A stretch of 34,759 bases of DNA from Coriobacteriales bacterium (lineage in GTDB: Bacteria > Actinomycetota > Coriobacteriia > Coriobacteriales > UBA8131): assembly GCA_031268525.1 (NCBI GenBank), contig JAIRXA010000085.1:1-34759 (forward strand), given 5' to 3'. Position 1 is the first letter of the stretch. Each line of letters begins with the position of its first letter. A program made the translations under genes and the position numbers. Below, one piece after another: positions 7,999-34,471 of the stretch. The notes beneath the pieces were generated by a model. That model was not told where the DNA came from. It searched no databases and saw only the letters and a program-made list of their open reading frames with translations.

Positions 7999-8116
7999 GC
8001 TGCTCCTTTGTTCCTCAGGTGGCCGTCGACAATTGTAACGTAAGCCCGGAGCAGCCGCAGATCGCGCTCAAGAGCACGTTTCCTTATGCAATGTTCGTCA
8101 GGTAGACGGAACATGT

Positions 8117-8158
8117 GGTATGTGGGGCATGGGGACGTTTTCTCTTGCCTCACATACC
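8117..8158. terminator. Stem-loop between gatC and the DUF5050 gene
   Basis: A 13-base stem, GGTATGTG + GGGCA pairing with TGCCT + CACATACC (one G-T pair), encloses a loop of about 16 bases. It lies about 27 bases past the stop of the minus-strand DUF5050 gene. It could end that transcript before gatC, but no T-run follows. The rest of 7999-8184 shows no gene. Confidence 0.4.
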
Positions 8159-8184
8159 CCCGGAAGTGTCGACAGGCAGAGAGT

Positions 8185-11164: not shown

Positions 11165-11811
11165 AGCACCATCCCCTGTGTGATCTTGTCAACCGTGCCG
11201 TCGAGCGAGTACCTCAGTTCATACTTTTCGGCTTCAGAGATACTGAGGAGGAATAGCTTATCGGTAGTCGGCTCGCAGCCTGCAACTCCATATTCAGCGT
11301 TACCGTCATTTACGAAGGTTGAGGAGGCAATGATTGATTTCTCGTTAAAAGCAAAGCTTCCATCTATAAAGTCAGTGTTGAGCCATCTTCGCAGACTGCA
11401 GTCACTCCATGAGGCGTCTTCGATAGTATCATTATACTGACGGCTGCTGACATAATCTTGGGTAATAATGAGAGCTTTGCCTTCCCTGATGTCTAAAACT
11501 AACCAGTTATGTCCACCAAATCCAGATACAACTTCGCCTATAGATAGACCAGTAGGTATCCCAAGCACTTCTGAGTTTGTTGTTGATACGAGTGATGTTC
11601 CAGAAAAAGAACCTACTACATTCTCTTCCTGCTGTTCTGTGCCCAACGCGCTCCTCAGTAAAGCAACAGTGATTGCTACGGCTGCAAAAATCCCTATAAA
11701 AACGAGGATACGCCTGGCGTGAGAGTGTGCGGGTTTTGTCCTTGAGTGATTGCCACTGGCGGTTCTTTTGGTTCTGCTCTGTATGTCTGGTTTTACTTTG
11801 CCGTAAGCCAT
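11161..11811 (-). CDS. Membrane-anchored DUF6273-like protein, domain incomplete
   Basis: The 216-residue protein has a basic N-terminus, one membrane helix (about 34-52), and an extracytoplasmic domain with NWLVLDIREGKALIITQDY, SWSDCSLRRWLN, AFNEKSIIASSTFVN and KLFLLSISEAEKYEL. These are hallmarks of DUF6273, a domain often found with surface or extracellular proteins of Gram-positive bacteria. The family domain normally continues with a region ending in WLRSPG-like sequence; here the protein stops soon after EAEKY. It may be truncated. The gene overlaps the following metallopeptidase start by four bases. Confidence 0.65.
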   Translation of the reverse strand: MAYGKVKPDIQSRTKRTASGNHSRTKPAHSHARRILVFIGIFAAVAITVALLRSALGTEQQEENVVGSFSGTSLVSTTNSEVLGIPTGLSIGEVVSGFGGHNWLVLDIREGKALIITQDYVSSRQYNDTIEDASWSDCSLRRWLNTDFIDGSFAFNEKSIIASSTFVNDGNAEYGVAGCEPTTDKLFLLSISEAEKYELRYSLDGTVDKITQGMVL

Positions 11812-14726: not shown

Positions 14727-15680
14727 TTACTCATGCGACTCAGGGTCTTCCAAGACCTGTGCCGCATCTTTGTTTTCATTGGGTAAGCTTGTTGGATGTG
14801 ATCCTGAATCGGTGCCTGTGACATCAGCATCATTCCAGCTCGGATACAGCTCGCAATCGTGCTTACGGTGCCACTCGCTCACCAGCCTCTTCCAGTCGGG
14901 TTCCCTGTAGTACGCATCCTCAAGACAGGTTGCCCTCGCGTCACCTACGATAACCACTACGGTTACGTCATCGTTGTTGGTTGCCTCGTCGGGCACCTGC
15001 TCGATAGAGCGTTTCACCCGGATGTTTCCCTCTTTGTTGGTGATGTTCAGCTTGTCAGCGGGGTAGTCTAAGAGGAAGCGTAGCGGTGGGATGTAAAGTC
15101 CGTCGCTGAAATCTTCAAGCAGCGGATTACAGACAAAGCCCAGAAAACCGTCGCTGGTCAGGAGAACCGATGACACCGGCTTTGGGTGTTTGCCAAAGAC
15201 CCACCAATCCTCGCCAAAGCTCAATGGGTATACACGCCCGTACTCGTCGTTTTGCTCTTCGGTGACCTTGGCATAGTGACCGTCTGCTTGCAGGGCGATG
15301 ATGCCACTGTCGCCAGACTGGCCGAAGTACAGGTCTTTGCCGATAAGCACGGCAGTGGCGAGGGTCGTGTCGCAGTCGCGTAGGTCGTATCCGCGCACTC
15401 TGGCAAGAAGTTCCACGGCTTCCCTGGCGCAACAATAGGCATCCTTGAGGGACTTGAACATCATCTCGATACTCGGCGTAGAGCCTTTGAGGTGCTCTGC
15501 CAGGAACACCATCGTTACAAATGAAGCCAGCTTCGACGCTTCGTCGGAGTGCGCCGCACTTCCCAGACCGTCGGCAACCACCCCAATGGCGATCCCATCA
15601 TCTGTAACGAACTCAGCGAGGCTGTCCTGGCATACGGGGTGGGAAGGACCGCCTTTGATCGCCTTGAATATGCGTGGCAT
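14727..15680 (-). CDS. PP2C-type protein phosphatase of the TerY-P triad
   Basis: This 317-residue cytoplasmic protein resembles PP2C metal-dependent Ser/Thr phosphatases. Metal-binding motifs are VVADGLGSAAHS (Asp37-Gly38), SGDSG in place of the usual VGDSR (near 122-126), LTSDGF (176-178) and NNDDVTVVVI (235-244). It probably reverses phosphorylation by the neighbouring kinase. The start at 15680 has AGGAGG six bases upstream; the longer frame to 15725 would overlap the vWA gene. The C-terminal 65 residues are acidic and likely disordered. It begins ten bases after the vWA stop, in the operon order vWA-phosphatase-kinase. Confidence 0.87.
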   Translation of the reverse strand: MPRIFKAIKGGPSHPVCQDSLAEFVTDDGIAIGVVADGLGSAAHSDEASKLASFVTMVFLAEHLKGSTPSIEMMFKSLKDAYCCAREAVELLARVRGYDLRDCDTTLATAVLIGKDLYFGQSGDSGIIALQADGHYAKVTEEQNDEYGRVYPLSFGEDWWVFGKHPKPVSSVLLTSDGFLGFVCNPLLEDFSDGLYIPPLRFLLDYPADKLNITNKEGNIRVKRSIEQVPDEATNNDDVTVVVIVGDARATCLEDAYYREPDWKRLVSEWHRKHDCELYPSWNDADVTGTDSGSHPTSLPNENKDAAQVLEDPESHE

Positions 15681-15690
15681 AGGAGCCCTC

Positions 15691-16422
15691 CTAATCGTTA
15701 AGCCAGTCGCAGGTGTCCTGCTCAAAGTTGTCCGGCTGTACTGCGGTCTTTACCTTGTCGCCAGGGCTAGACTCGGATACAGCGCGCATCGACTTATGTA
15801 CCCAATCGAATAATTTGGTAAAGTCATAGTCAGTCAGCCGCGTCACTTTCTCCCCAGCCAGCTTGTGAAGCGTCTCAGAACTGTAGCTGCCGCAGCCAAA
15901 TGCCAGCAGCTTCAGCTTGCCGTCCGCCTCCATCTGCCTCACAACCTCGGCGGCTTCGTCTACAGGCGTGTTGGGATAGCCGTCCGTAATGAGCAACACC
16001 CAAGGCTTATAGGGTCGGATGCCCTGACTGAGGTAACGGCGGTACTGGTTATCCACTTCGGTGAGGGCCGCCTTGACAGCCTTGTTCATTTCGGTGCTAC
16101 CCTCTGGTCGCAAGGTGTGATCAGCCATGGCAGTCACCGGCGCAAACGGCTGGATGTACTTGTTGGCATCGCTGAAGGTGATAATACCAACATCAAGCAC
16201 ACTGGCAGTCTTCGGGTCCTTGAGCATGTCGCGTTTGAATCGAGCAATTCCCTTGTTCAGCTCGTCGATCGGGGTACCAGACATAGACCCCGACACGTCC
16301 ACAAGTAGCATCAAGGCCTCGCGGTTCAGTGTCGACATCTCGATTGCCGTGCTTGGCCCGTCCCGAAAAAACCCGTCGTCGTGACTGTCGGAGCCTTGAT
16401 TTTTCCTGCCGAAAATAGACAT
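15691..16422 (-). CDS. TerY-like von Willebrand factor A domain protein
   Basis: The 243-residue protein has a full MIDAS metal site: DVSGSMS (42-48), Thr in EGSTEM (near 110) and Asp in LITDGYPN (147). The size and sequence order match TerY, the vWA member of tellurite-resistance-linked TerY-P modules, where it acts as a scaffold or phosphorylation target in the cytoplasm. The tail is short and acidic. A GAGGT site supports the ATG. It is the first gene of the minus-strand operon and faces the SNF2 gene across a 326-base divergent region. Confidence 0.87.
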   Translation of the reverse strand: MSIFGRKNQGSDSHDDGFFRDGPSTAIEMSTLNREALMLLVDVSGSMSGTPIDELNKGIARFKRDMLKDPKTASVLDVGIITFSDANKYIQPFAPVTAMADHTLRPEGSTEMNKAVKAALTEVDNQYRRYLSQGIRPYKPWVLLITDGYPNTPVDEAAEVVRQMEADGKLKLLAFGCGSYSSETLHKLAGEKVTRLTDYDFTKLFDWVHKSMRAVSESSPGDKVKTAVQPDNFEQDTCDWLND

Positions 16423-16748: not shown

Positions 16749-19700
16749 ATGGCAATCACTGAGATCGAACTGATACCACTTGACGACCGGTCTTCGGGGG
16801 GTGCAGCAGTTAATGCTGCCTTACTTGGTCCCAGACAAGCTCTGACCTTATCGGTGCGAAACCTGGGCAAGGTAGATCCTGAGTATATCGCCCGGCTCTG
16901 TGGTGTTTCCACCGAGGATGCCATCGACAGGCTCAGTGGCCATATCTATCAAAACCCTGAAACCTGGCAAGGCGATGCAATGCAGGGCTGGGAGCTTGCC
17001 GGGGGATACCTCTCGGGCAACGTCTACCTCAAACTGGACGCCGCTTTGAGAGCCCGCAGCAACTCGAACGCCCACGGACGTTTTGAGGCCAACATTCAGG
17101 CGCTCAAGGAGGTGCTGCCAGCCGCTATACCGTTTGCCAACATCTACTACGGCCTCGGCACGCCGTGGATCAAAGAGAGCATCTACAACGCCTTTGTAAA
17201 GGAGGTGCTGTTCGGTATCAGCGGTGGGGGTCGACTAGATCTGGTCACATACGACAAGGCCAAGAACAAGTGGTGTATCCGCTCCAAGCGCAAGTTGTCC
17301 AAGTCAACACGCGGCGATTTTGGCACCACCTATCAGGGTTGCGGTACTCTTGAGCTTTTAGAGGATCGCATGAATCTCAAGTCCACAGTTGTTAAGCATG
17401 AGATCAGCGATCCTGCCGCCAAGGGCGGGACTCGCAGGGTCACAGACGAGAAGGCCACCGCTTTTACTCAACGCCAGCAGGAACGCCTTGGAGAAGCATT
17501 CGTCACATGGGTAGGTAATAACGAGGCTGTTCAGTGCAGCATCGCATCCAGTTTTAACGCTCGTTTCGGCTACATGCTCCGCAAGAGGTTCAGCGGCAGT
17601 TATCTTGATTTCCCAGGTCTTGCAGAGGGTATCGAGCTGTTCCAGTGTCAAAGGGATGCGATCGCCCGCATCCTGCTCACCCCCAACACTCTGCTTGCCC
17701 ATGAGGTAGGTGTCGGCAAGACTTACACCATGATCGTCTCTGGCATGCTGATGCGTCAGATGGGAATCTCCAGCAAAAATCTCTATGCCGTACCAAACGA
17801 TATTGTGGGGCAGTGGGAAGACTTCTTCCGTACCCTCTACCCAGAGGCAGCCATACTCGTCATCACTCCTGACGTGATGGTGCCCACACTTAGGAACGAG
17901 ACACTTAAGGAGGCCTGCACCGGCGACTACGATGCCATCATAATGTCGCACAGCGTATTTGAGCGCATCCCCCTGCGCCGCCCGCCAAAGCCTGTCGAGC
18001 GACGTGGCAGTAGCAAGAAGGCGGAGTCCTGCAAGCCCTACAAGCATGTCTTGTACTGGTTTGAAGACTTGGGCGTAAACACGCTGTTCATTGATGAGGT
18101 GCATAAGTATAAGAACATTCCGCTGCACAGCCGCATCAACAACGTATATGGCCTCAACATAACCGGCGCCGACACGTCTGCTGACGTTTTGGCCAAGGTG
18201 CGCTGTGTACAGAAAATGAACGGTGGCGGAGGCGTGGTGCTCGCCACTGGCACCCCCATCACCAATTCTCTCGCAGACGTGTTCGCCTGGCAGTCGATGT
18301 GTCAGCCCTCACTGCTCAAAATGCTCAACATAGACACCTTTGACAAGTGGGTGTCCACCTTCGCTGAGCGCACTGAGGAATACGAGATAACCCTCGCTGG
18401 CAAGCCGCGTCTGACCACACGCTTCCGGTGCTTTTGCAACCTCCCTGAGCTAGCGTCTCTCATGAGCCAGTTCACCGACTTTCACCGGCTCGACATGCGG
18501 GATGACCTGCCAAAACTTGACAAGTATAGCGAGCATGTTGTGGCTATGAATGAATATCAGGAGTGGGTATTCGAGGATTTCTCGGGCCGCATCGAGAAGA
18601 TCAGGTGCAGGCAGGTGCATCCCAAGGACGACAACATGCTGATGGTCTACACTGATGCCCGCAAGACCTCTCTGGATGTGCGTCTGTTCGACACCGCTTT
18701 CGTGAGCAAAATGGAGTGCAAGGTGCAACGCTGCGCTCGACAGATCTACGAGATCTACCTCGCGGGTGCGGATGGGCTACTCACACAACTCGTATTCTGT
18801 GACACGTCCACACCCAAGAATAGTTTTAACATATTCGACGAGTTGACCAACGAGTTGCTTGCGCTGGGAATCCCGCGCAGCGAGATCGCTTTTGTGCAAG
18901 ACAACACCACCACCGAGCAGTATAAAAAGGCATTGGTCGCCGAGATGAACTCGGGACGGGTGCGCATCTTGGTAGGCTCGACCGCCAAGGGCGGCACAGG
19001 CTTCAACGTCCAGGAGCGGCTGGTTGCCATACATCATCTCGACACACCCTGGCGCCCCGCAGACATGATCCAGCGCGAGGGGCGTGGCCTGCGCCCAGGC
19101 AACACCAATAAGCAGCTCTTTATTTACCGCTACCTCACAGAAAAGAGCTTTGATGCCTACCAGTATCAGATATTGGAGACCAAACAGGAGCTGATAGCCC
19201 AGTTCATGTCAGGGTCCTTCCCTTTCCGCGAAGTGGAGGATTTGGGAGCGGCAGTGCTGGACTACGGCCAGGTAAAAGCGCTTTTGGAGGATAACCCCCG
19301 CATCAAGGAGCGCCTGGACATCGCGAACGACATAACGCGGCTGCGTCTCCTGCTCAAGGGCGACGAGGAGAACCGTTTGGCGCTCAGAAGTGAACTGGCG
19401 GCCATACCAGCCAAGATCGCCGAGATGGACGCGCATCTGGCCGCGGCAAGTGCCGATAGTCTAACCGCCGCAGCCGCGCCCGCTCCGCTTGCAACACAAG
19501 AGGACAGGAAGCGGCACGGGGCGTACATCCTCTGGGCGGCAGAGGATATCGCTTGCGGCGAGCGCCGGGAGCTGGGTTCCTACCGAGGATTCGGCCTAAG
19601 CATTGCCAAGGAAGCCGAGGGCGAAGACCTCGCAGTGTACGCCGTACTCGACGGGCAAGGGCAGTACAGGGTCAAGCTGGGTGAGAGTGCCGCAGGCGCT

Positions 19701-19895
19701 ATAACCCGTCTGGATAACCGTCTCTCCCGCCTCGCCAAGGACATTGAGGACATGAAAGTCGACAGGGAGGCGCTCATCAATCGTCGCGACGACATCGCCA
19801 ATTCGCTGGGTACCCCCGAGAGCTACAGCTCTCAGATAAAGGCCAAACAGCTCAAGCTGGACGAGCTGGATACACAGATACAGGAAGGTGCGTGA
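16749..19895 (+). CDS. Large SNF2-type (SF2) helicase, DarB/LtrC-like
   Basis: This 1048-residue protein is a DNA-translocating ATPase of the SF2/SNF2 group. Walker A is LAHEVGVGKTYT (316-327), motif II FIDEVHKYKN (448-457), motif III LATGTPITN (498-506), motifs V-VI STAKGGTGFNVQERL and QREGRGLRPGN (744-785). The N-terminus has WELAGGYLSGNVYLKL, found in the helicase half of DarB/LtrC-like proteins of conjugative elements and phages, but no methylase motif (NPPY) is visible. The C-terminus is a coiled coil (about 985-1048). The ATG at 16749 follows AAAGGTG; an earlier in-frame ATG at 16620 has no such support. The next gene overlaps its stop by four bases (GTGA). Confidence 0.87.
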   Translation: MAITEIELIPLDDRSSGGAAVNAALLGPRQALTLSVRNLGKVDPEYIARLCGVSTEDAIDRLSGHIYQNPETWQGDAMQGWELAGGYLSGNVYLKLDAALRARSNSNAHGRFEANIQALKEVLPAAIPFANIYYGLGTPWIKESIYNAFVKEVLFGISGGGRLDLVTYDKAKNKWCIRSKRKLSKSTRGDFGTTYQGCGTLELLEDRMNLKSTVVKHEISDPAAKGGTRRVTDEKATAFTQRQQERLGEAFVTWVGNNEAVQCSIASSFNARFGYMLRKRFSGSYLDFPGLAEGIELFQCQRDAIARILLTPNTLLAHEVGVGKTYTMIVSGMLMRQMGISSKNLYAVPNDIVGQWEDFFRTLYPEAAILVITPDVMVPTLRNETLKEACTGDYDAIIMSHSVFERIPLRRPPKPVERRGSSKKAESCKPYKHVLYWFEDLGVNTLFIDEVHKYKNIPLHSRINNVYGLNITGADTSADVLAKVRCVQKMNGGGGVVLATGTPITNSLADVFAWQSMCQPSLLKMLNIDTFDKWVSTFAERTEEYEITLAGKPRLTTRFRCFCNLPELASLMSQFTDFHRLDMRDDLPKLDKYSEHVVAMNEYQEWVFEDFSGRIEKIRCRQVHPKDDNMLMVYTDARKTSLDVRLFDTAFVSKMECKVQRCARQIYEIYLAGADGLLTQLVFCDTSTPKNSFNIFDELTNELLALGIPRSEIAFVQDNTTTEQYKKALVAEMNSGRVRILVGSTAKGGTGFNVQERLVAIHHLDTPWRPADMIQREGRGLRPGNTNKQLFIYRYLTEKSFDAYQYQILETKQELIAQFMSGSFPFREVEDLGAAVLDYGQVKALLEDNPRIKERLDIANDITRLRLLLKGDEENRLALRSELAAIPAKIAEMDAHLAAASADSLTAAAAPAPLATQEDRKRHGAYILWAAEDIACGERRELGSYRGFGLSIAKEAEGEDLAVYAVLDGQGQYRVKLGESAAGAITRLDNRLSRLAKDIEDMKVDREALINRRDDIANSLGTPESYSSQIKAKQLKLDELDTQIQEGA

Positions 19896-21004
19896 TCCAG
19901 ATGAAGAAGGATGCCAATACAGGCGTTGCCCTGCAGGCAGCCATCAGTTCGGTCGCTGACCTCTATGTTGGCGCTCTCAATCAGGGGCTCTCGCCATCCA
20001 ACTTACCTCCGTTCATGCTTTGGGGGCCGCCGGGGGTCGGCAAGTCGCAGGGCGTGAGGCAGATCGCGCTCGACGTTGGGAAGCGCACTGGCAGGAAGGC
20101 CGTAGTCACCGACGTGCGTCTGATGCTCTTCAATCCCGTAGACCTGCGTGGCATACCGGTGGCCAATGCCGAGCGTACGCTAGCGGTTTGGCTCAAGCCG
20201 GAGGTTTTTGATATGGACGCCGACGACGGCATCGTCAACGTCCTGTTTTTGGACGAGATCAGTGCCGCACCACCGTCCGTGCAGGCCACGGCCTACCAGA
20301 TCACCTTGGATCGCCGCATCGGCGAACATAGGCTGCCAGATAACTGCATCGTCATAGCAGCAGGCAACCGTGTGACCGACCGCTCGGTGGCCTACAAAAT
20401 GCCCAAGGCACTCGCGAACCGGCTTTGCCACATCGACGTGCGTGCGGACCACAGGACGTGGAAGGCTTGGGCTGTGCGATCTGGCATAGACCCCCGCATC
20501 CTGGGCTTCTTGGAGTTTCAGCCAGACCGGCTCATGCGTTTTGACACTGCGACAGACGACCATGCCTTCGCCACGCCACGCTCTTGGGAGATGCTCAGCC
20601 GCGTGCTCGACTGCCTCACTGGCGATGACAGCGGGCTATTTCTACTGACGTCGGGCTGTGTTGGCGAGGGGGTGGCTACGGAGTTCCTCACCTGGATTGA
20701 TGTTTATGATAGTCTGCCCGACATTGCTGCCATCTTTGACGGCAAGGATGTTGAGGTGCCCAAATCGACTGACGCCTTATATGCGCTCGTTTCCTCGATG
20801 GTTGCCTACGCCAGGGACAACCTGGATGATGAATGGCGCATCGAACGCTCAATAGCCTACGGGACACGCCTGCCAGTGGATTATACGGTTGTACTCTTCC
20901 GCGATTACCAATCTATCAGTGAGCAGTCTAAGCGTTTGCTCATGCGCTCAGAAGCTCTCAACGACTGGAGCATAGCACACGGGAGATTCTTTAATGATAT
21001 CTGA
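19892..21004 (+). CDS. MoxR-like AAA+ ATPase
   Basis: The 370-residue protein is a cytoplasmic AAA+ ATPase of the MoxR type. Walker A is LWGPPGVGKSQG (43-54), Walker B VLFLDEISAAP (117-127) and sensor 1 IAAGNR (155-160); an ANRL segment follows. MoxR proteins act with vWA partners to remodel or insert cofactors into targets. The GTG start at 19892 overlaps the helicase stop and has AGGAAGG upstream; an ATG at 19901 is an alternative. Its end overlaps the vWA gene by 11 bases, so the three genes form one operon. Confidence 0.85.
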   Translation: MIQMKKDANTGVALQAAISSVADLYVGALNQGLSPSNLPPFMLWGPPGVGKSQGVRQIALDVGKRTGRKAVVTDVRLMLFNPVDLRGIPVANAERTLAVWLKPEVFDMDADDGIVNVLFLDEISAAPPSVQATAYQITLDRRIGEHRLPDNCIVIAAGNRVTDRSVAYKMPKALANRLCHIDVRADHRTWKAWAVRSGIDPRILGFLEFQPDRLMRFDTATDDHAFATPRSWEMLSRVLDCLTGDDSGLFLLTSGCVGEGVATEFLTWIDVYDSLPDIAAIFDGKDVEVPKSTDALYALVSSMVAYARDNLDDEWRIERSIAYGTRLPVDYTVVLFRDYQSISEQSKRLLMRSEALNDWSIAHGRFFNDI

Positions 21005-22280
21005 TGACGGATACGCGCGCAGAGCTGCGGATCGGCTCCTGCGCTCGCGCACGCGCCTGCTGCTCGACCATGGTTTCTTTGGACTACTGCTGATGCACAT
21101 GCACTTCGCCCTGGACGATACATTCGGCATGGCGGCGACAGACGGCGACTTCATCTACTTCTCCCCAGAGTTTCTGGCAAACATCAGCGACGAGGAGTTG
21201 GACTTCATCATGATGCACGAGGTGATGCATACAGCGCTTGCCCACACCTCGCGTGTCAGCGAGCGGGACAGTTTCGCCTTCAACGTGGCCTGCGACATCG
21301 TGGTTAACTCTATCATCATCAAGGAGATGGGAAGGGGGTCGTTCTCGCTCGAGAAGTATGGCCCAGCCATGCACCTGGCGCCCAGTGGCAGGGAGGGTTA
21401 TCTCTACTCCGCTGAGGAGGTCTACGAGATGCTTGGTAAATACAAATTACAGTGCGACCAGGCCTCTGATGGAGCAGGAGGAGGCACAGCGAAAGGCAAA
21501 GGTGCGGCCAGTGGCAGGCGTGAAGCGAACGGCAGAGGTACGGCCAGTGGCAGGCGTGAAACGAACGACAGAGGCGAGATACTTGATGACCACTCGCGCT
21601 GGGGCAAGCATGCTGGTGACGACAGGCATCAGGCGACTTGGCGGCAGCGCATCCTGGCTGCTGCAAAGGCTATGGAGCGCAGGGAACGGGATTGCGGCAG
21701 GCTCCCGCTGTTCGCTGAGAGGCTTGTCAGGGAGCTTGCGGAGTCAAAGGTGGACTGGCGCTCCGTACTTCAGAATTTCATTCAGGAGGAGGTCTTCGAC
21801 TACGGCTTCCAGCCACCGGACAAGCGCTACCAGGATGGCGACTTCCTGCTGCCAGACTTCAACGATAAGCGCAACGTGCTACACAACGTCATGTTCTACG
21901 TCGATGCTTCCGGGTCGGTATCCAACCAGGAACTTGTCGAAGCCATGAGCGAGGTCGTCGGGGCGGTCGAGCAGTTCGGCGGCTGCCTGACTGGCTACGT
22001 CTCCTTCTTTGACGCGAAGGTTGGCAAGCCCCTGCCATTCGATGATGTGTCCGACCTTAACAGAGCTGCCGTGTGCGGCGGTGGCGGCACCAGCTTCCAG
22101 ACCGTGTTCGATAGCCTCCAAGGTTTTGCCAAAGACAACCCCGTCTCCTGCGCCATAGTACTCACAGATGGCTATGCGCCCTACCCTGCAGAGAGTGCAG
22201 CGGCAGATATACCGATACTCTGGCTCATCAACAACGAGAAGAAGACCCCTCCTTGGGGACTGGTAGTGAGGATGGATTAA
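20994..22280 (+). CDS. HEXXH metallopeptidase-vWA protein (DUF2201-like), MoxR partner
   Basis: The 428-residue protein joins a zinc-peptidase-like domain and a vWA domain. HEVMH (75-79) with Asp in FNVACDIVVN (near 101) forms a likely zinc site; the MIDAS motif is YVDASGSVS (302-310), with Thr in GGTSFQT and Asp in LTDGYAP. This layout matches DUF2201-type proteins encoded beside MoxR ATPases. Between the domains lies a Gly/Arg-rich stretch that is a tandem duplication in DNA. The start is supported by GGGAGA upstream. Whether it cleaves protein is untested. Confidence 0.85.
   Translation: MISDDGYARRAADRLLRSRTRLLLDHGFFGLLLMHMHFALDDTFGMAATDGDFIYFSPEFLANISDEELDFIMMHEVMHTALAHTSRVSERDSFAFNVACDIVVNSIIIKEMGRGSFSLEKYGPAMHLAPSGREGYLYSAEEVYEMLGKYKLQCDQASDGAGGGTAKGKGAASGRREANGRGTASGRRETNDRGEILDDHSRWGKHAGDDRHQATWRQRILAAAKAMERRERDCGRLPLFAERLVRELAESKVDWRSVLQNFIQEEVFDYGFQPPDKRYQDGDFLLPDFNDKRNVLHNVMFYVDASGSVSNQELVEAMSEVVGAVEQFGGCLTGYVSFFDAKVGKPLPFDDVSDLNRAAVCGGGGTSFQTVFDSLQGFAKDNPVSCAIVLTDGYAPYPAESAAADIPILWLINNEKKTPPWGLVVRMD
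21501..21572 (+). repeat. In-frame 36-base tandem duplication
   Basis: Two 36-base units (21501-21536 and 21537-21572) differ at three positions, all G to A. They encode GAASGRREANGR and GTASGRRETNDR in the linker of the HEXXH-vWA protein. The linker tolerates length change because the unit is in frame. Confidence 0.8.
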
Positions 22281-22302
22281 GCAGACAGATGAAGAACTCG
22301 GA

Positions 22303-22791
22303 TTACTCTACTGTTTTGCTGGGCTTCGCCAGCACATCATTGAGGCCAATGTAGCCTCTGGAGAAAGCCAAGAGCTTGAGACTGTATGTATCCATCAGCT
22401 TGTTTGAGTAGGAGACGATCTCATCAATTATCTCAGCTGTAACTACCATGTCCTTATAGCGTGAACTGTTGCGATAGATAATCTCACGCATCTCCGTCAC
22501 CACCGAAAACGAGCCACTGAGCAAAGTCGTGTTGATGAGACAGCACGCCCACATGGCTTCTTCCAGTTTTTCTGTCGGGAGGCTGAATGGCAGGAAGCTA
22601 GCGACGGTGATCCGCTCGCCTTTTCCGTTTGTTTCTATAAAGAAGCAGGCGTCCAGGTCTTTACCTCTGATGTTGTAGTGGATGGTGAGCTCTTTGTCGT
22701 CGGCCTCATAATGCCAGCCGCGTTTGTCAAAATAACTCTTAATCGTCGCGTACGTTGCTGTTGCGTTTGATGTCTTGGTCTTGTCTCCCAT
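22303..22791 (-). CDS. YbjN-like (type III chaperone-fold) protein
   Basis: The 162-residue protein has the alternating helix and strand pattern of YbjN-like proteins: an N-terminal helix ATIKSYFDKRGWHYEADD, then strands LTIHYNIRG and ACFFIETNG, and a helix after FSLPTEKLEEAMWACCLINTT. Such domains bind partner proteins as chaperone-like adaptors. A GGGAGG site seven bases upstream supports the ATG at 22791. It follows the DUF5663 gene by two bases and is the last gene of the HerA operon, convergent with the vWA gene. The assignment rests on pattern, not on a catalytic motif. Confidence 0.6.
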   Translation of the reverse strand: MGDKTKTSNATATYATIKSYFDKRGWHYEADDKELTIHYNIRGKDLDACFFIETNGKGERITVASFLPFSLPTEKLEEAMWACCLINTTLLSGSFSVVTEMREIIYRNSSRYKDMVVTAEIIDEIVSYSNKLMDTYSLKLLAFSRGYIGLNDVLAKPSKTVE

Positions 22792-22793
22792 GG

Positions 22794-23777
22794 TTAATCC
22801 TCCCGAGTATTCATCCAAAGGCCGATCAGTCCTTTGGTGTCTATTTCGCCTTTGTTCAACGCTTCGAAGTGAGGGTAGAGATCATCCACTGTGCGAAGCG
22901 TGCTGTAGAGCATCACACCAAACAGCTTGTTCCCTGGTAGGCTGCTACGGTAGTAGGCGGAGGAAACATAGTCCAGCCTGTCACGCTCTGGGTCAAAAAT
23001 AAAGCATCCGACCGACAGATACTGGTTTATTTCGTTTATGCATCTTAGGAATTCGCTGCCTTGGGCTGCGTCGATAGCAAGTATTACCTTTGCGACTATT
23101 CGCAGACATCCAGACTGAGGAATTACCCTGAAACAAACAGGCACTCTCGTGCTCCTGAACTTGATAGCTGTGGTAATGGTGCGTTTTTCATCATCGCTGG
23201 AGTACAGCAATTCCTCATTGTCAAGAAAAGCGCAGAGTTTGCCAAAAATCAATTCAGCCTGCCCCAACTCATCCAAGCCGTCCATGTCAGCTCGCTCCAA
23301 GAGTTTGCGCCGCGCGGCATCTTCTGAAGCAATCTTCTCAAGTATTGCGGCACTGCGCTCCGTCAACTCCTTCTTAATCTCGCCGAAGACAGCAGCTACC
23401 ACCATGCGATAGTCCGGGCAATTTCTCGCAAGCCACATCATTGCGCCGAACTCGCTCATTATGGCCTCCGAATCCAAGCTCTGGCCATGCGAGGCTCTGT
23501 TCTCGTAGAAGCGCTCGAGCGTCTGACGGTTCTCGGGTATGTCGAGAGGGAAGTTACGACTCAGCCATCCGCGCATTATCTCGGTGTCTTTGTCTACAAA
23601 CGCCCCAAACTCATCGATTATCTCATCGCTCAGGCCTTCGGTTATCTTTTTTCCAACGCGCATCTCCAAATCGGCATATAGGTCCGAAATGAACCGAGTC
23701 TTCCGTTTTTCCGGCATCGAGCCAAGCCCTATCTCTTCGAGAAAGTCGTTGTCTAGTTTGAGCTTATCCATTATCAT
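22794..23777 (-). CDS. DUF5663 plus YbjN-like adaptor protein
   Basis: The 327-residue protein begins with a DUF5663-like helical domain: FLEEIGLGSMPEKRKTRFI, YADLEMRVGKKITEGLSDEI, DEFGAF (about residues 12-58). A second, partial copy of similar helices lies near WLARNCPDYRMVVAAVFGEI. The C-terminal 130 residues resemble the YbjN fold of the next gene (strands TITTAIKF, VPVCFRVI, then RCINEINQYLSVGCFIFD). DUF5663 is often attached to secretion or DNA-transfer ATPases, which fits its position. The ATG at 23777 overlaps the HerA stop (ATGA); an ATG six bases later is possible. Confidence 0.7.
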   Translation of the reverse strand: MIMDKLKLDNDFLEEIGLGSMPEKRKTRFISDLYADLEMRVGKKITEGLSDEIIDEFGAFVDKDTEIMRGWLSRNFPLDIPENRQTLERFYENRASHGQSLDSEAIMSEFGAMMWLARNCPDYRMVVAAVFGEIKKELTERSAAILEKIASEDAARRKLLERADMDGLDELGQAELIFGKLCAFLDNEELLYSSDDEKRTITTAIKFRSTRVPVCFRVIPQSGCLRIVAKVILAIDAAQGSEFLRCINEINQYLSVGCFIFDPERDRLDYVSSAYYRSSLPGNKLFGVMLYSTLRTVDDLYPHFEALNKGEIDTKGLIGLWMNTRED

Positions 23778-25582
23778 GCCTTCTTTCTGCTCTTACCCTT
23801 GCGGCCAGTTTTTCCGTCAGTTTTGTCTCCGGGCTGGTTGGGCTGGTCGCCTCCCGGCTTCTCAGTTTGCGCAGCGCTGGTCTTCTGCGTTTTCTTATGC
23901 CTCACATCCTGCCGCTTCGCTTCTAAAAACGACAAGTCGTCCCATGAGATCGAGGTGGTGCTGTCAGCCTGTTGAGACTTTGGCTCCACCTTGGCTTCTT
24001 TGTCTTGAGCAGGCGGGGTTTTACTCTCTGGTGCAGTCATGCTGGCAAGCATGTCTGCAAGTTCTTGGACGGTGCCCGTATCAGTACCACTGCCCTCGAT
24101 TTGTGCGCGGACGGTCTCTATTTTCTTCTTTTGGCTCTGCTTGGGCTTGGCACTTTTTGTATCGACCTCTTTGCCATCCCTCCGCCGCCAGATGCCCTCT
24201 TCTACCATGCGTTTGCGTATCTGTGTCGCCGTGGTGTCATCTTGCGCTTTTGGCGCAAGTGGTACAGAGACGACAACGGGCTTAAGCTCCCTGTTGTCGA
24301 ACAAGAGCCTGACCATCGCTTTGTAGCGCCCGATGTGGCGCACAGAGTCGATGTCGATGTCAAACTGGTCGGCAATCACTCGTGCATCATTGGCTCCCAC
24401 CCTGAAGCAGGCGATGGTGCCAACGTTGCCGAGGACGGCCTCCAGGAGAGAATGGTCCTGGCTTCCGGTGTGTAGATTAAAACGGATCAGCTGGCGGATG
24501 TTCTGGTTTGCGAGGATAAAGCCGCAGCCGAACTTGCGTGCCTCAGCCAACAACACAGCGAAGTCTGGGGTTGCGAAACGCTGGAACTCGTCGATGTACA
24601 CGTAGTGCTTACGCAATGGTTCGTCGCCTTTGAGGCACCGCTTCATGATGGCGTTCTTGATAAGCGCTACAAAATACGAGCCTATGAAGTCCGCTACACT
24701 GGTGCCAACGAGAGCCTCGGGTATCTTAACGATGAGTATCTTGCCGTTCTCGATAATCTCCTCAATGTCGATAGTTGTCTTGCCGCCGCCGAGAAAGAAG
24801 CGCAGCGTGGGGTCGGACACCCACTCGTGTATTTTAGAGAGGAACCAATGGATGGTGGAATCCCAATCGCTGTCACGACGGGAGCGTTTCTCCAGGTTCC
24901 ACTGTTCAACCAGACGCGTGCTCTTGATGGACTTCAGCGCATCGCCCAGATGGGCATCGTTGATGCTCAGAGCTTCAACCTCGGTAATGCTGCGCTCGAA
25001 TGGATAGCCGGGGTCCATGATGGTCTCCAGGCGCAAGCGCATAAGCTCTTCGCCACGAGGGCCGTAGTAACCTTCTGGCATCCTGCTGGATATCAGGGCG
25101 TTGAGGGTTTGCACAACAAGTGTCTTTTTTGCTTCATCGTTACAGTCAGCGTTCAAGAGATTGATTATCGGAAGGTACTCAGTGTTGGAGAAGTCCGCCA
25201 ACACTACGTCATTGAGGCGGTTTGGTGGAATTTTGGCCAATATCCTGTCGGCGGTCTTGCCGTGGGGGTCAATGAACGTAATCCCGTTGCCTTGGTTGAT
25301 ATCCTGCATTCCTGCATACTCAAACAAGTTGCTTTTGCCAGTTCCGGTCTTCCCAAAAAACCATGTTTGCTGCAATCTGTCTTCGGGAAACTGCCTGCAT
25401 TCCAGAATCTCTCCATGACTGAGGTAGTGCCCCAGGCTGACTCCCAAATCCAGGGTGTCCAACTCGTTTTTGAGATTGGAGTCCAGATTATAGCTGTCGC
25501 TTGTTTCTTTGCGATTCACTCTCTTGCCGCCTCTCCTGCTGATCTCTGAGTCGTTGATGAGTATTGTTTCAAAATCCCTCAT
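23774..25582 (-). CDS. HerA/VirD4-like ATPase
   Basis: This 602-residue protein belongs to the FtsK-HerA-VirD4 family of ring ATPases that pump DNA or protein. Walker A is FFGKTGTGKSNL (75-86), then ITFIDPHGKTADRILAKIP (101-119), typical of TraG/VirD4-like members, Walker B YVYIDEFQRF (327-336), and ILANQN (356-361). No membrane helices are seen, so it is a soluble type rather than a classical coupling protein. The C-terminal 160 residues are low complexity, ending in a basic KGKSRKK. No relaxase or mating-pore genes are in the window, which argues for a conflict-system role over conjugation. No strong ribosome site precedes the ATG. Confidence 0.85.
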   Translation of the reverse strand: MRDFETILINDSEISRRGGKRVNRKETSDSYNLDSNLKNELDTLDLGVSLGHYLSHGEILECRQFPEDRLQQTWFFGKTGTGKSNLFEYAGMQDINQGNGITFIDPHGKTADRILAKIPPNRLNDVVLADFSNTEYLPIINLLNADCNDEAKKTLVVQTLNALISSRMPEGYYGPRGEELMRLRLETIMDPGYPFERSITEVEALSINDAHLGDALKSIKSTRLVEQWNLEKRSRRDSDWDSTIHWFLSKIHEWVSDPTLRFFLGGGKTTIDIEEIIENGKILIVKIPEALVGTSVADFIGSYFVALIKNAIMKRCLKGDEPLRKHYVYIDEFQRFATPDFAVLLAEARKFGCGFILANQNIRQLIRFNLHTGSQDHSLLEAVLGNVGTIACFRVGANDARVIADQFDIDIDSVRHIGRYKAMVRLLFDNRELKPVVVSVPLAPKAQDDTTATQIRKRMVEEGIWRRRDGKEVDTKSAKPKQSQKKKIETVRAQIEGSGTDTGTVQELADMLASMTAPESKTPPAQDKEAKVEPKSQQADSTTSISWDDLSFLEAKRQDVRHKKTQKTSAAQTEKPGGDQPNQPGDKTDGKTGRKGKSRKKA

Positions 25583-25768: not shown

Positions 25769-27862
25769 ATGCCGAACGAAGAACGTGCAGAATCATTACA
25801 GAACCCGAATGACAACAATCCTGAAGCCAACGCGCTTGAATTCGAAGAAGCCGATCTGCCGGGAGCGCCAGGCGGAGAGGCGTATTTCAGAAAGTCCTTT
25901 GATAGGATGGGGAATCCGACGCAGGCAGCCATGCGTAGCCAGTATGAAGAAGCTTTCACAACCCCCGAAGAAACCCTCGAGTGGTTAGAGGGACTACCTA
26001 CCAGGGGGCACAATGCTTCAGAGAAGATGAAAGAGCTCGTTAATGAGAAACACTCAACTCTCTTTACTGCCATAGAACTCGCGTGCAAAAACGATAACGC
26101 CGCCTATGTTGAGACTCTCGTCGCATTGATCAGGGCTACAGCAGGGAATGACACGGCGGACGCAATGCGAGCAAACATTAGGAACTGGATTGCCGGAGAG
26201 AGTTGTCCCACCATAGAAACTCAGGCTTTCATACTCTGCTTCGCATTGCAGCTGGACGCCCTTGAGGCACAGGACTTCCTACAAAAAGCCTGCTATATGA
26301 ATGTCTATAACTTCAGGAAGACGAAGCACATTTTTTACAGCCTTGGCCTTCAGTTTGGGCTAACATACGATGGCACGGAATCAATCCTCATCAGATACCT
26401 GCATAAAACCATTTCGGCAGAGCAGAAAGAGGCGCTCCAAAACGGCGAAGCGTTGAAGTATATATTCTCCACCACACAGGGCGATGCGAAGATAAAAAAG
26501 TTCTGGGAATTTCTTATCCACAACAAAGATCTATTATCCGATACGTCGCCAGGTGCACATTTTTTGGCGTTATTGCAAGCATTACTGGCGAGTACTCCTC
26601 TGGCAAAAGAATGCCTAAAGCAGGTAGATCTCAACGCCGTTGTCGGCAATTCGTCTGAATGGATTGCAGGTTCTGACTTCGATGCGGTTTTCTCCGTAAT
26701 TGAAGACCAGAAGAGACGGGGCTCGCTCATCCGTTACCTCGACGAGCACTTTCTGCAAGGCCTCTCTCAGTATTGTGGCACACTACCACCGGAGACCGTT
26801 GCTGCAGTTTACGAGACTGCCTTTTCAAGAGTGTGGAATAACGCCGACTACATGATAAGAGTATATTACGACCTTGTAGCGCGCGATAACGCGCACAGAT
26901 ACGCGCCGAGAGGCGGGGGTACAACGCGAGCGCACGAGGCTGTCATGGATGTTGTGTTGAGAGGCGAGTATAGAGACCCGGATCTCTACGAAACGATAGA
27001 CACCATTCGTTACAAGCTGGTAGATTTACGCAACGAGCAGGATGACGTCGCAAGCCTACAAAATGAAATAGATGGCGCCCTGGATGAGATGGCCACACTT
27101 ATTGGTGGCTTATTGAGGGTGAGTTCGAAGAGCTTCATTGGCTACAGCAAAACTGCATACCAAAGGTACCTCTGGTATAGGATCAGGTTAACAAAGCAGA
27201 TAATCAGGGAATCCTCGGAAACAACAATGCCCCCGTCACCCGCAGGCGAGAGCATCGACGAGAACACCGTGGACTTGAAAGTCTTAGAAAGCTACGCCGA
27301 AGCTCTGCAAGAGCACGGCAAGGTTTCCGACCCCGAATTCGTCTTCAACCTGTATGGTAAATACGCCAACCTCACTCTACGGGCAAATGGCGAGCGACGA
27401 GACCGAAGTGAAAAAGAGATTGACATCAAGCTATTGGCACAAGCGGGCATCGAAGAGATGCCTGCAATAAATTATTTCTCGCGGGTACGAAAGAACCCGG
27501 CAACGCTTACAACAAGTGAGTGGGGCAGAAGCATTCTCTTTCTTTTCTATTTCTATGGTTTTGTCTCAGATAGCTACATCAGAGAGCTGGCAATAGAAAA
27601 GTTTTATGATGAGCACCCAGGGCTGGCAGGAGCAGAGGGCATTAGTCACGAGAATTATCTTTCATTTTATTATGGACTCTGCAAACTTGCCTATGATTGT
27701 GGCCTTGCGATACCGTATCCGAGAAGGCGATTTGACGCACTGCTACTGAGGGCAGCTGCAGAGCTGGATAACCGGAACAATGGCGATGACCAGCCGCTGG
27801 TGTACTTTGGTGAGCTTATTGAGTACGTTTACGATACTGATTCGGAGCGATATGATGCCTGA
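25769..27862 (+). CDS. Unrecognised 697-residue helical protein
   Basis: I do not recognise this protein. It looks soluble and mostly alpha-helical, with no membrane segment or signal peptide. The first 40 residues are acidic and disordered. The region about 100-200 has repeated helices around CFALQLDALEAQDFLQKA and FYSLGLQFGL, a pattern seen in some uncharacterised proteins of Gram-positive bacteria. The region about 400-500 has many Asp/Glu/Arg residues and may be coiled coil. The last part is Tyr/Phe-rich (ILFLFYFYGF). The next gene's start overlaps its end, so it is translated with the pseudokinase and may be its target or effector. No nuclease or other catalytic motif could be identified. 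Confidence 0.7.
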   Translation: MPNEERAESLQNPNDNNPEANALEFEEADLPGAPGGEAYFRKSFDRMGNPTQAAMRSQYEEAFTTPEETLEWLEGLPTRGHNASEKMKELVNEKHSTLFTAIELACKNDNAAYVETLVALIRATAGNDTADAMRANIRNWIAGESCPTIETQAFILCFALQLDALEAQDFLQKACYMNVYNFRKTKHIFYSLGLQFGLTYDGTESILIRYLHKTISAEQKEALQNGEALKYIFSTTQGDAKIKKFWEFLIHNKDLLSDTSPGAHFLALLQALLASTPLAKECLKQVDLNAVVGNSSEWIAGSDFDAVFSVIEDQKRRGSLIRYLDEHFLQGLSQYCGTLPPETVAAVYETAFSRVWNNADYMIRVYYDLVARDNAHRYAPRGGGTTRAHEAVMDVVLRGEYRDPDLYETIDTIRYKLVDLRNEQDDVASLQNEIDGALDEMATLIGGLLRVSSKSFIGYSKTAYQRYLWYRIRLTKQIIRESSETTMPPSPAGESIDENTVDLKVLESYAEALQEHGKVSDPEFVFNLYGKYANLTLRANGERRDRSEKEIDIKLLAQAGIEEMPAINYFSRVRKNPATLTTSEWGRSILFLFYFYGFVSDSYIRELAIEKFYDEHPGLAGAEGISHENYLSFYYGLCKLAYDCGLAIPYPRRRFDALLLRAAAELDNRNNGDDQPLVYFGELIEYVYDTDSERYDA

Positions 27863-29300
27863 AAATCGTCATGAGACAGCACAGGCACTGGGCGAAGTGG
27901 CCGTAGACAGCTACGAAGCGAACCCCTCTCTGCGCTTCGACAGCATAAAACAAGACTACTGGAAACGGGAGAGCCTGTTTTCGTTTGCGCGGGAAAAGTA
28001 TCCAGATACAGACCTCTATAACTACTCTGTCGATGTTGAACGGAACATCAGAATTGATCCCATCAGGGCAGCAAGTAGTCTACGCTTGGCGCTTGAAACA
28101 TTTGTCGCGATTATTCTTAAGGACAATAACATCTCCGTATCAATAAACTATTCATTTAACAATCTGTTTGAGAAGTTAAAGGACGCACTGCACTTAGATG
28201 TGAGAGCGCAGGGTTTCTTGCATAGGATGAAAGAGGGGCAAAAGAAAACGATAAATTGGCCAGATGAGTATAACAGCAATTTTAAGCGCCTGAGAGCATT
28301 GACGAACGCAGCACATCATATTGAGGACACCAAAAAAGACACCGATGCGAAATTGATGACCGAGCAGAATGTGGCGTATGCTGCGCGCGTATATTACTTG
28401 GAATTATGCAAATACGCACAACTTTATCCTGTGAACGCTATCTCATGGCCAATCGGTGACTTCTACGAACTCAAGAAACTTGCCAAGAATGCAGCGCCTT
28501 TAAACAGAATAGAAGTCCTGTCTGCCAAAAGGAGTATTTCTGCGCCTGGTTTAGATTCTCATGCGATTCTTTACGTGTATTCCCATAGAGGAGAGGGGCT
28601 GAGCGACGGCATCATCAACCGCCAGGGAATTGTCAAGGATATTGAGCGGAGCTCCGGGCTTAACCCCATTGTACCAAACGTAGAGGTTGTGGCCGACACA
28701 TACGATAGCAAGATACTGGCATATACCTTCGCCACGGAACCAATTGTGCTCTTGCCCGACAGCTTTGACTTGGAGCTTTCAGACGCCGAATACTGTGAGT
28801 TATTCACGAGAATTGCTGCAGGACTCGCGGCTCTGCAGGATTCGTCGCCCCCGGTTTTTCATCGAGCGATATCTCGATATGCTGTGGTTTTTGAAAAGAC
28901 TTCAGCCGGACGCTATCTGCCAAAGTTGATCAATTTCAACCTTGCGAAAGTCGAGGGGTTGGCAGGAACTGTAGGGCCAGATCTGAAGGGAGTTCTTATT
29001 TCTAACGCATATAAACCACCTGAACTGCACCTTGATACTTCTTGCACGGATGAGATGGGCCAAAGTAAGCTAAATGTCGATTGGGGCAAATACGATGTTT
29101 ACGCCTTAGGAGTTCTCTTTCTTGACGTTCTTAACAGGCTTACGGGTACCGTTACCTTGGCTCAGGCAAAGAAGCTCCATCCTCCTGCAGCGGATGGATT
29201 ATCAGAGGACTTCTATTACTTACTTGAGAAGATGGTTGATCCTGCACCGGAGAATCGGCCAAATATGACGATGGTAGCCAAGCAATTGGCTCAGCCCTGA
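27855..29300 (+). CDS. HEPN/DUF4145-like domain fused to a pseudokinase
   Basis: The 481-residue protein has two parts. Residues about 68-190 (RAASSLRLALETFVAIIL ... LRALTNAAHHIED) resemble DUF4145/HEPN helical domains, though a clear RX4-6H ribonuclease motif is not evident. Residues about 215-481 have a kinase fold: the loop near HRAISRYAVVF (336-346) lacks the catalytic Asp and Asn, DFG is replaced by NFN (360-362), and PPEL plus DVYALGVLFLDVL (388-426) mark the C-lobe. It is therefore probably catalytically dead and acts as a sensor or scaffold for the next gene, an active-looking kinase. The ATG at 27855 has GGAG seven bases upstream; the ATG at 27852 is also possible. Confidence 0.75.
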   Translation: MPENRHETAQALGEVAVDSYEANPSLRFDSIKQDYWKRESLFSFAREKYPDTDLYNYSVDVERNIRIDPIRAASSLRLALETFVAIILKDNNISVSINYSFNNLFEKLKDALHLDVRAQGFLHRMKEGQKKTINWPDEYNSNFKRLRALTNAAHHIEDTKKDTDAKLMTEQNVAYAARVYYLELCKYAQLYPVNAISWPIGDFYELKKLAKNAAPLNRIEVLSAKRSISAPGLDSHAILYVYSHRGEGLSDGIINRQGIVKDIERSSGLNPIVPNVEVVADTYDSKILAYTFATEPIVLLPDSFDLELSDAEYCELFTRIAAGLAALQDSSPPVFHRAISRYAVVFEKTSAGRYLPKLINFNLAKVEGLAGTVGPDLKGVLISNAYKPPELHLDTSCTDEMGQSKLNVDWGKYDVYALGVLFLDVLNRLTGTVTLAQAKKLHPPAADGLSEDFYYLLEKMVDPAPENRPNMTMVAKQLAQP

Positions 29301-29306
29301 AAGCCT

Positions 29307-30938
29307 GTGATTATTGTGAGCCATTCGACATCCTCATACTTCATTGTCGGCGACTCCCGCCAAGGCCAAGAACTGAGCTCCAAAACGCCGCCCCTCAATC
29401 TTGACGGTACTGAGGTGCAGATAGGTGGGCTGATCGGCGTTGGCACAAGCTGCCTGGCATACGACGGTAAGACCGTTGGTTTGAGCGAGCGCGTGGTGGT
29501 CAAGGAGTGGTTTCCCCGTGATCTCGCCGCCTGCAAAGCCCTGAAGCGCGATACGTCTTCTTCCTGCCTTATCGCCGACGCAGAAGTGATGAAGGACATC
29601 GAAGGCGATGAGCTCCGGAAAGGATTCGAAAAGAGCTTCATCAAGTGGCTTGAATACCAGAGAGAAGCCCCCCGTTTTACCCTCTGGCCGGAGCTGCACC
29701 CCCTTGGTGATACGGTCTACCTCCTGACAAAGCTCGGAGGGGAGGGTATGTCGCTGTCACAGTCCCGCGCGGACCTCCTGAAAAAGGATTGTTCGCGCGA
29801 ATCCCTGTGCTCGGTGCTCGAAGTTACGATTTCCCTCCTCAACAGGCTGCAGCCCTTGCACACGGCCGGACTCCTGTACATCGACGTCAAACCCGAAAAC
29901 ATCCTGCTGTTCAGCACAGACAAGACGCCTGGCGAGAGCAGGGCGGTGGCCCTGTTCGACTTTGACTCCACGGCGAGCCTCACCGATATACAGAATGGGT
30001 CTGTCATCCTCCGTCCCACGGCAGGGTGGGCACCCCACGAAGCTTGGGAGCCGACCCAGCCCGAGAGCGTGAACTTCTGCACAGACCTATACGGCGTGGG
30101 GCGCGTCCTGCTGTGGTTATTGGGTGTGGAGCCGTCAGCAGACGGAGCGGACTGCCTTGGCGAGAACTTTATACGGACGAACATCGGGGCTTACCTCGGT
30201 CGGTTTGCCAGCACCGAGTTTTCTACGAGTGCCTGCAACACCATAATTGTGGCCTTGGCGAAGGTGTTGGCAAATGCGCTACGGCACGACACCAAAAAGC
30301 GCTATCAGAGCATCGCTGAGATGCGTGCGGCCCTGATAGCCGTCCGTGAAGGCTTGGGAACGTACCATGCCGAACCTGAGCCCAACGATGATGAGCTGCA
30401 TGAGTTTAAAAGGCGCTTTGACAACATGGAGGAATTAATCCGCACTGCATTCGATAATGTCAGTCGGCAGCTCCAAAAGAGCACGACAGAGATTATTCAA
30501 GAAGTACAAAAGACGCCGGAACAGGCGTATCAGGGGGCATATCAGGGGGCAATCGATGCGGGGAAAGCAACTTCTGGCCATGGCGATCTCGACACGCAAG
30601 CCCCCGATAAAAAGAGCTCGTTGCGGGTGGAAGCATCTGGCAACGGACTTGCTATACAGATTGAGGTAACAGATTCCGGCAATGACAGCACCCCCGGAAA
30701 GCCCGAAGAAAATACTGACCCGCCCAAAGCGGACCTCCCAACTGCTCTTCCAGAAAGGCCTTATCCCGCCTTGGACGAAAAAACTAATGAGCGCATATCG
30801 TCACTGATTAACAGCTTGGGTCAACACAGTGACGATTCGGATCCTGCTGCATCGTTGACAATTGAACTGCTTGACCAGAGAGTTGCGAACGACGAATCGA
30901 CTACGGCTCTTCAGGAATGGGTAGCTATCTATCTGTAG
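29307..30938 (+). CDS. Protein kinase with long disordered tail
   Basis: This 543-residue kinase has a glycine loop GLIGVGTSCLAY (41-52), a lysine in VVVKEW (66), an intact catalytic loop LYIDVKPENILL (190-201), metal site LFDFDS (DFD instead of DFG, 217-222) and an activation end WAPHEAWEP (241-249). It is likely active. Residues after about 355 are charged, with a coiled-coil candidate and an AYQGAYQGA duplication, and no membrane helix, so it is cytoplasmic. The start is GTG at 29307, six bases past the pseudokinase stop. Its end overlaps the convergent nitroreductase gene by ten bases. Pairing with a pseudokinase suggests regulated phosphorylation; targets are unknown. Confidence 0.85.
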   Translation: MIIVSHSTSSYFIVGDSRQGQELSSKTPPLNLDGTEVQIGGLIGVGTSCLAYDGKTVGLSERVVVKEWFPRDLAACKALKRDTSSSCLIADAEVMKDIEGDELRKGFEKSFIKWLEYQREAPRFTLWPELHPLGDTVYLLTKLGGEGMSLSQSRADLLKKDCSRESLCSVLEVTISLLNRLQPLHTAGLLYIDVKPENILLFSTDKTPGESRAVALFDFDSTASLTDIQNGSVILRPTAGWAPHEAWEPTQPESVNFCTDLYGVGRVLLWLLGVEPSADGADCLGENFIRTNIGAYLGRFASTEFSTSACNTIIVALAKVLANALRHDTKKRYQSIAEMRAALIAVREGLGTYHAEPEPNDDELHEFKRRFDNMEELIRTAFDNVSRQLQKSTTEIIQEVQKTPEQAYQGAYQGAIDAGKATSGHGDLDTQAPDKKSSLRVEASGNGLAIQIEVTDSGNDSTPGKPEENTDPPKADLPTALPERPYPALDEKTNERISSLINSLGQHSDDSDPAASLTIELLDQRVANDESTTALQEWVAIYL

Positions 30939-34470: not shown

Positions 34471-34471
34471 T

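Follow-up and report, generated by a model that had tools for sequence, protein, structure and literature searches.

A horizontally moving SNF2-MoxR-DUF2201 cassette in an island of conflict-type modules from a Coriobacteriales genome

Contig JAIRXA010000085.1 from a Coriobacteriales bacterium (34759 nucleotides, analysed in its entirety and referred to here as the window; the host assembly is 77.8% complete and belongs to the same order as Anaerotardibacter muris) encodes a SNF2-type ATPase, a MoxR-type AAA+ ATPase and a DUF2201 protein in three overlapping genes. These constitute a self-contained, horizontally moving three-gene cassette that is shared by very different gut bacteria, and the window in which it lies is an island where at least four conflict-type modules, each independent of the others, are arranged side by side. 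With a little better than even confidence, we read the locus as a conflict-module island whose mobile cassette would clear the nucleoprotein of invaders, defence being the expected role. No description of the trio was found in the full-text literature searched, with most subscription papers outside its coverage, and the cassette seems undescribed. The first-pass annotation of this DNA had suggested a possibly undescribed machine composed of the cassette and its neighbouring operons; that suggestion is supported for the set of DNA translocase, MoxR and HEXXH-vWA protein, but not for a composite with the HerA/YbjN and TerY-P genes.

The three cassette genes

The SNF2 gene is predicted to start at the ATG at 16749, which is preceded by a purine-rich stretch, and its reading frame is open from an in-frame GTG at 16620 (Table 1). 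In the window the MoxR start overlaps the SNF2 end by 4 nucleotides (nt), and the DUF2201 start overlaps the MoxR end by 11 nt; across the cassettes, where gene starts are clear, these overlaps are 4–8 nt and about 11–14 nt, respectively. The SNF2 Walker A (HEVGVGKT), DEVH, TGTP and QREGR motifs are intact in every cassette of sufficient length, and the top structural matches to the AlphaFold model of this protein, a low-confidence one (predicted local distance difference test, pLDDT, 56), are SNF2 remodellers. The DUF2201 protein has an N-terminal metallopeptidase domain with the motif HEVMH and a C-terminal vWA domain with a full metal ion-dependent adhesion site (MIDAS). Its HExxH and MIDAS residues are invariant in an alignment of nine sequences, and its AlphaFold model, also weak (pLDDT 61), matches vWA folds. 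Walker A/B, motif III and motif VI of SNF2 are retained across the cassettes together with the MoxR ATPase motifs, divergence being found chiefly at one locus (L111); the window MoxR is 51–55% identical to the other cassette MoxRs and 42% identical to that of the divergent L111. The PADLOC database, in a version dating from 2023, has no models for MoxR or DUF2201 and gives partial matches only to SNF2, and on these grounds we rejected the cassette as a known PADLOC system.

Table 1. Coordinates of the cassette and of the neighbouring genes in the window.
Feature	Length (aa)	Coordinates	Strand	Evidence
SNF2-type ATPase (cassette gene 1)	1048	16749-19895	+	Pfam SNF2-rel_dom 9.5e-10, Helicase_C 2.6e-6
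MoxR-type AAA+ ATPase (cassette gene 2)	370	19892-21004	+	Pfam AAA_3 1.3e-6, AAA 1e-5
DUF2201 (cassette gene 3)	428	20994-22280	+	Pfam DUF2201_N metallopeptidase 5.9e-33, DUF2201 VWA-like 5.5e-13
YbjN-domain protein	171	22303-22818	-	Pfam YbjN 1.8e-5
DUF5663 + YbjN protein	327	22794-23777	-	Pfam DUF5663 3.4e-10, YbjN 9e-4
HerA/TraG-like P-loop ATPase	602	23774-25582	-	TrwB_AAD_bind 8e-5; PADLOC mad8 1.2e-14; structure matches DotL, HerA
TerY-like vWA protein		15691-16422	-	Pfam VWA 3.3e-11
PP2C phosphatase		14727-15725	-	Pfam PP2C_2 4.3e-23
Divergent protein kinase, transmembrane helices		13068-14708	-	Weak lanthionine-synthetase-kinase and MkoA matches; motifs
Protein without family match, likely pseudokinase, and kinase	697, 506, 543	25769-30938	+	Pfam Pkinase; PADLOC MkoA, mad6, PD-T4-6

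Distribution of the cassette

A SNF2 gene lies immediately upstream of a MoxR-DUF2201 pair in 14 genomes of Coriobacteriia and Clostridia, the window included. Within the order, searches with DUF2201 and with SNF2 both reach A. muris (G154), in which the gene order and the overlaps of 4 nt and 11 nt are identical to those of the window. A scan of a genome collection recovered eight loci, one in A. muris and the rest in Lachnospiraceae, Oscillospiraceae and other Clostridia, and nine of 391 Clostridia genomes contain DUF2201 at E < 1e-30, one of these being already known. Two of the 201 genomes searched in the order have the cassette, as do about 7 of the 391 Clostridia. It is also carried by the IMG/VR contig L140, where the SNF2 gene is cut by the contig end and two serine recombinase genes are located ~4 kb further on; in G444 the contig begins at MoxR. 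When all proteins encoded around 17 loci were clustered against one another, only SNF2, MoxR and DUF2201 were common to most; the next most shared family, DUF6273 (6 of the 17), is a common family generally.

At locus L063, the SNF2 gene of the cassette is interrupted close to helicase motif VI by an element (coordinates 6107-8775) that encodes a large serine recombinase.

Co-divergence and origin

For 12 complete cassettes the distance matrices correlate at 0.89 (SNF2-MoxR), 0.91 (SNF2-DUF2201) and 0.94 (MoxR-DUF2201), and these values were reached in 0 of 2000 permutations. That the three genes form one functional unit is supported. The notion that they are unrelated neighbours is scarcely credible: parts of the set do occur alone, if rarely, which would speak for it, but the overlapping operon in 14 genomes, the co-divergence and the position of the three families as the sole shared core of the neighbourhoods all argue against it.

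The cassette SNF2 proteins, along with that of locus L016 described below, form a single clade with maximal support in the approximate likelihood ratio test (SH-aLRT 100), apart from 18 relatives from integrative elements, plasmids and phages. A. muris clusters with the Clostridia and not with the window (100/99; approximately unbiased [AU] test p 0.049), with long branches as a caveat, a grouping that suggests transfer of the cassette between phyla. Relatives of the SNF2 protein are present on about 2000 plasmid records and also in phages, and the nearest non-cassette MoxRs are encoded on large phage contigs of 158–504 kb. These viral contigs (L141–L145) carry MoxR and metallopeptidase-vWA pairs in which MoxR is 43–49% identical to that of the window, and no SNF2 gene was found near the pairs. 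To judge from the trees, two modules, each with relatives in mobile elements, appear to have been joined in the cassette.

Such relationships raise the alternative that the cassette was left in chromosomes by a mobile element or phage, as a module for counter-defence, anti-restriction or particle assembly, and serves the element and not the host. The plasmid and phage relatives of SNF2, the viral contigs with the closest outside MoxRs, the two serine recombinases following the L140 cassette, and the anti-restriction role of the DarB type (PMC5512222) are all consistent with it. However, the methylase required for DarB-like anti-restriction is absent, the scanned cassette SNF2 proteins (window, A. 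muris and L059) containing SNF2/helicase domains only; most cassettes are chromosomal, and neither relaxase nor virion genes were seen in their vicinity; and the jumbo-phage pairs are without SNF2. We consider this origin and role rather unlikely.

Proposed function

By analogy with what is established for SNF2 translocases and MoxR-vWA chaperones, a mechanism can be proposed for the cassette. The SNF2 ATPase would bind and move along DNA, perhaps marking DNA that is invading or abnormally occupied, and the vWA part of DUF2201 would capture a protein bound on it. The MoxR ring would then spend ATP to remodel the captured protein, which the attached HExxH metallopeptidase would cleave, such that nucleoprotein complexes of the invader, for example replication, transcription or packaging proteins, would be removed or destroyed. 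The biological role expected is defence against phages or mobile elements, with a crosslinked protein as the alternative target. In its narrower form, the proposal is of a mobile immune system in which the SNF2 motor brings an AAA+ metalloprotease to the DNA-bound proteins of invaders and acts by proteolysis and not by nucleic-acid cutting; this is possible, and we put it forward tentatively.

The patchy distribution of the cassette, its mobility and its neighbours (BREX, GmrSD/SspE-like, IetA-like, PDC-S01, a weak PD-(D/E)XK match, TerY-P, kinases and STAND) lead us to lean towards a conflict role. Several observations weigh against it. The cassette proteins contain no recognisable nuclease domain, so that the cassette would be unable to restrict DNA alone. 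Its parts are separable, since two Clostridia loci (in G420 and G333) have a MoxR-DUF2201 pair without SNF2, and L016 (G170:C9) has a cassette-type SNF2 on a 3.9-kb contig with no MoxR after it. Several cassettes are flanked by housekeeping genes. Finally, a role in virion assembly, not defence, has been proposed for the MoxR-metallopeptidase-vWA pairs of jumbo phages (PMC7824862).

The crosslinked target corresponds to a further alternative, a DNA-repair or stress device in which a SNF2 translocase and an AAA+ protease clear DNA-protein crosslinks in the manner of eukaryotic SPRTN. SNF2 proteins strip proteins off DNA, an ability in keeping with such a device, as is the weak resemblance of the DUF2201 N-terminus to SprT-like peptidases (E 0.0099). 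The patchy occurrence of the cassette (2/201 in the order, about 7/391 in Clostridia) and its horizontal movement are nevertheless unlike core repair, and BREX is among its neighbours; we regard a repair role as distinctly unlikely.

A nuclease is the end point of most known defence systems that track along DNA. If clearance of invader nucleoprotein is indeed the function, then a nuclease-free cassette of a translocase and an AAA+ metalloprotease would point to proteolysis of invader nucleoprotein as a route of defence; alternatively, the cassette would be a bacterial counterpart of the DNA-protein crosslink proteases. The cassette can be tested directly, since it is compact, with three genes in about 5.5 kb, and one of its hosts, A. 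muris, has a strain designation.

The HerA/YbjN and TerY-P operons

Neither the HerA/YbjN operon nor the TerY-P operon of the window supplies subunits of the cassette; both are separate systems. The first-pass annotation had recognised SNF2, MoxR, HEXXH-vWA, HerA, YbjN/DUF5663 and kinase-phosphatase-vWA genes, all of which are present at or near the places where it put them, and had joined them in one composite system, which is not borne out. HerA, the cassette and the TerY-P kinase are all uncommon among the 201 genomes of the order, and this window is the one place where they come together. HerA, YbjN, DUF5663 and TerY-P genes are absent from the flanks examined at every other cassette locus. 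HerA has no clear match in seven cassette genomes (one match at 7.5e-6). In 14 cassette-related genomes besides that of the window, G444 included, nothing matches the TerY-P kinase strongly (one match at 3.2e-11 over 104 residues); within the order this kinase has matches in 12 of the 201 genomes, and in 10 of the 12, counting the window, E is < 1e-11.

Relatives of HerA were sought in the 201 genomes of the order, in 397 of the phylum, and in plasmids and phages. The nearest, at locus L006 of a genome of the same family (G040), belongs to a two-gene HerA and DUF5663-type module beside housekeeping genes, where no SNF2, MoxR, TerY or kinase of the window's kinds is found. HerA is likewise followed by DUF5663 on the Rhodococcus ruber plasmid pYYL1.1 (L091), and the other actinobacterial HerA loci examined have no cassette or TerY-P genes.

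A single phosphorylation-regulated conflict machine that combines TerY-P, SNF2, MoxR-peptidase and HerA/YbjN is very improbable. All of the operons are adjacent on one contig, and TerY-P triads have been reported beside restriction and DNA-processing systems (PMC11090510), but the operons lie on opposite strands with none shared, HerA, YbjN and TerY-P are missing near all other cassettes, HerA-DUF5663 stands alone elsewhere, and the TerY-P kinase is without a strong match in the 14 cassette genomes.

The lack of a relaxase noted in the first pass is confirmed, as no Pfam relaxase or type IV secretion system pore gene is present in the window; in the whole host assembly (77.8% complete) there is no match to relaxase PF03432, the sole family searched genome-wide. 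The HerA gene was considered as a remnant of conjugation and rejected as such, relaxase and mating-pore genes being missing from the window.

Organization of the window

The left third of the window is ordinary chromosome, with Pfam matches to gatC, gatA, gatB, a PhoU-like gene and a pyruvate-formate-lyase-like enzyme. Downstream of ~10 kb there are five strand-switching gene groups: (i) the TerY vWA, PP2C, kinase and a VTT membrane protein on the minus strand; (ii) the cassette on the plus strand; (iii) YbjN, DUF5663-YbjN and the HerA/TraG-like ATPase on the minus strand, convergent to the cassette operon; (iv) the 697-aa protein, the pseudokinase-like protein and a kinase on the plus strand; and (v) a nitroreductase and an nSTAND1-pentapeptide protein on the minus strand. 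Scans for Rfam families and for tRNA genes were negative, and a simple promoter/terminator scan gave a result close to chance.

In the triad kinase of group (i), a C-terminal zinc-ribbon-like C/H pattern, CSKDKHHYYFNGLNSCPHC, can be read from the sequence and is matched by no domain model. In group (iv), the 697-aa protein has almost no relatives among the 201 genomes of the order, and plasmid searches with it and with the 543-aa kinase gave no matches. In the likely pseudokinase (506 aa) the kinase domain is without the catalytic residues normally present (HRAISR, NFN), and a stretch near the N-terminus, RALTNAAHH, resembles a HEPN motif; the 543-aa kinase carries DVKPEN and DFD. In group (v) (30929-34500, minus strand) the nSTAND1-pentapeptide gene is followed by a small nitroreductase gene with a 4-nt overlap, a possible sensor-effector pair. 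A 387-aa protein with a HEYAH motif and a weak aminopeptidase match is encoded in an operon with a DUF6273 protein at 10001-11811 (minus strand).

Genes flanking the cassettes

The A. muris cassette adjoins the BREX type I genes BrxB, BrxC, PglX, PglZ and BrxL. GmrSD/SspE-like and IetA-like genes are located near the cassette at L057, PDC-S01 in G463, and a weak PD-(D/E)XK match at L056. The A. muris BREX region (L053, L058, L052) includes two similar N-terminal PglX pieces with a separate C-terminal piece between them, an arrangement that suggests PglX may be switched by recombination in this operon. A DUF2828/DUF7788-like gene adjoins the cassette in G463 (L103/L104) and in L140 (5293-6858), and in G463 an RtcB RNA ligase gene comes right after it.

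Comparison with known systems

The SNF2 core gives partial matches (E 1e-10 to 1e-7) to BrxHI of BREX, DrmD of DISARM and ZorD of Zorya, but these are short and far under the family cut-offs. PADLOC and Pfam found no other BREX, DISARM or Zorya genes in the window (BrxC, PglZ, PglX and BrxA/B included), and of the DISARM set of DrmA, DrmB and DrmC with DrmD or DrmE there are only partial SNF2 matches to DrmD and DrmA; the cassette belongs to none of these three systems. The window vWA, PP2C and kinase genes resemble the TerY-P triad (PMC11090510, PMC7699616) in forming one operon, the kinase being assigned from weak matches and motifs; this operon is separate from the cassette, and PADLOC models matched neither the vWA nor the PP2C protein.

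The MoxR and metallopeptidase-vWA pairs of jumbo phages (PMC7824862) share both families with the cassette, in adjacent genes and with the metallopeptidase N-terminal. They differ in that no SNF2 is found at the phage pair loci, except on the mobile contig L140, and in that the window is chromosomal, with gatCAB and the pyruvate-formate-lyase-like gene on its left and no virion genes among the Pfam matches.

In the DNA methylase-helicase dyad of polyvalent proteins, of the phage P1 DarB type, a methylase and a helicase are joined (PMC5512222). The cassette SNF2 aligns over residues about 30–1041 (97%) with the helicase half of relatives encoded on plasmids and in phages, at 32–35% identity, whereas the one relative scanned, a 2355-aa Vagococcus plasmid protein, has an Eco57I-type methylase before the helicase. 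The cassette SNF2, which lacks the methylase, falls in its own clade and is tied to MoxR-DUF2201; an intact methylase-helicase was rejected, and the cassette is not of the DarB type because the methylase is absent.

The MoxR-vWA ternary conflict systems (PMC7159879) likewise combine a MoxR chaperone, a peptidase-fused vWA partner and a third dedicated protein. In the cassette, however, the third protein is a SNF2 translocase and not VMAP, iSTAND, FtsH or a beta-propeller, and the hosts are Clostridia and Coriobacteriia as opposed to multicellular bacteria; this difference in the third component places the cassette outside the published ternary systems.

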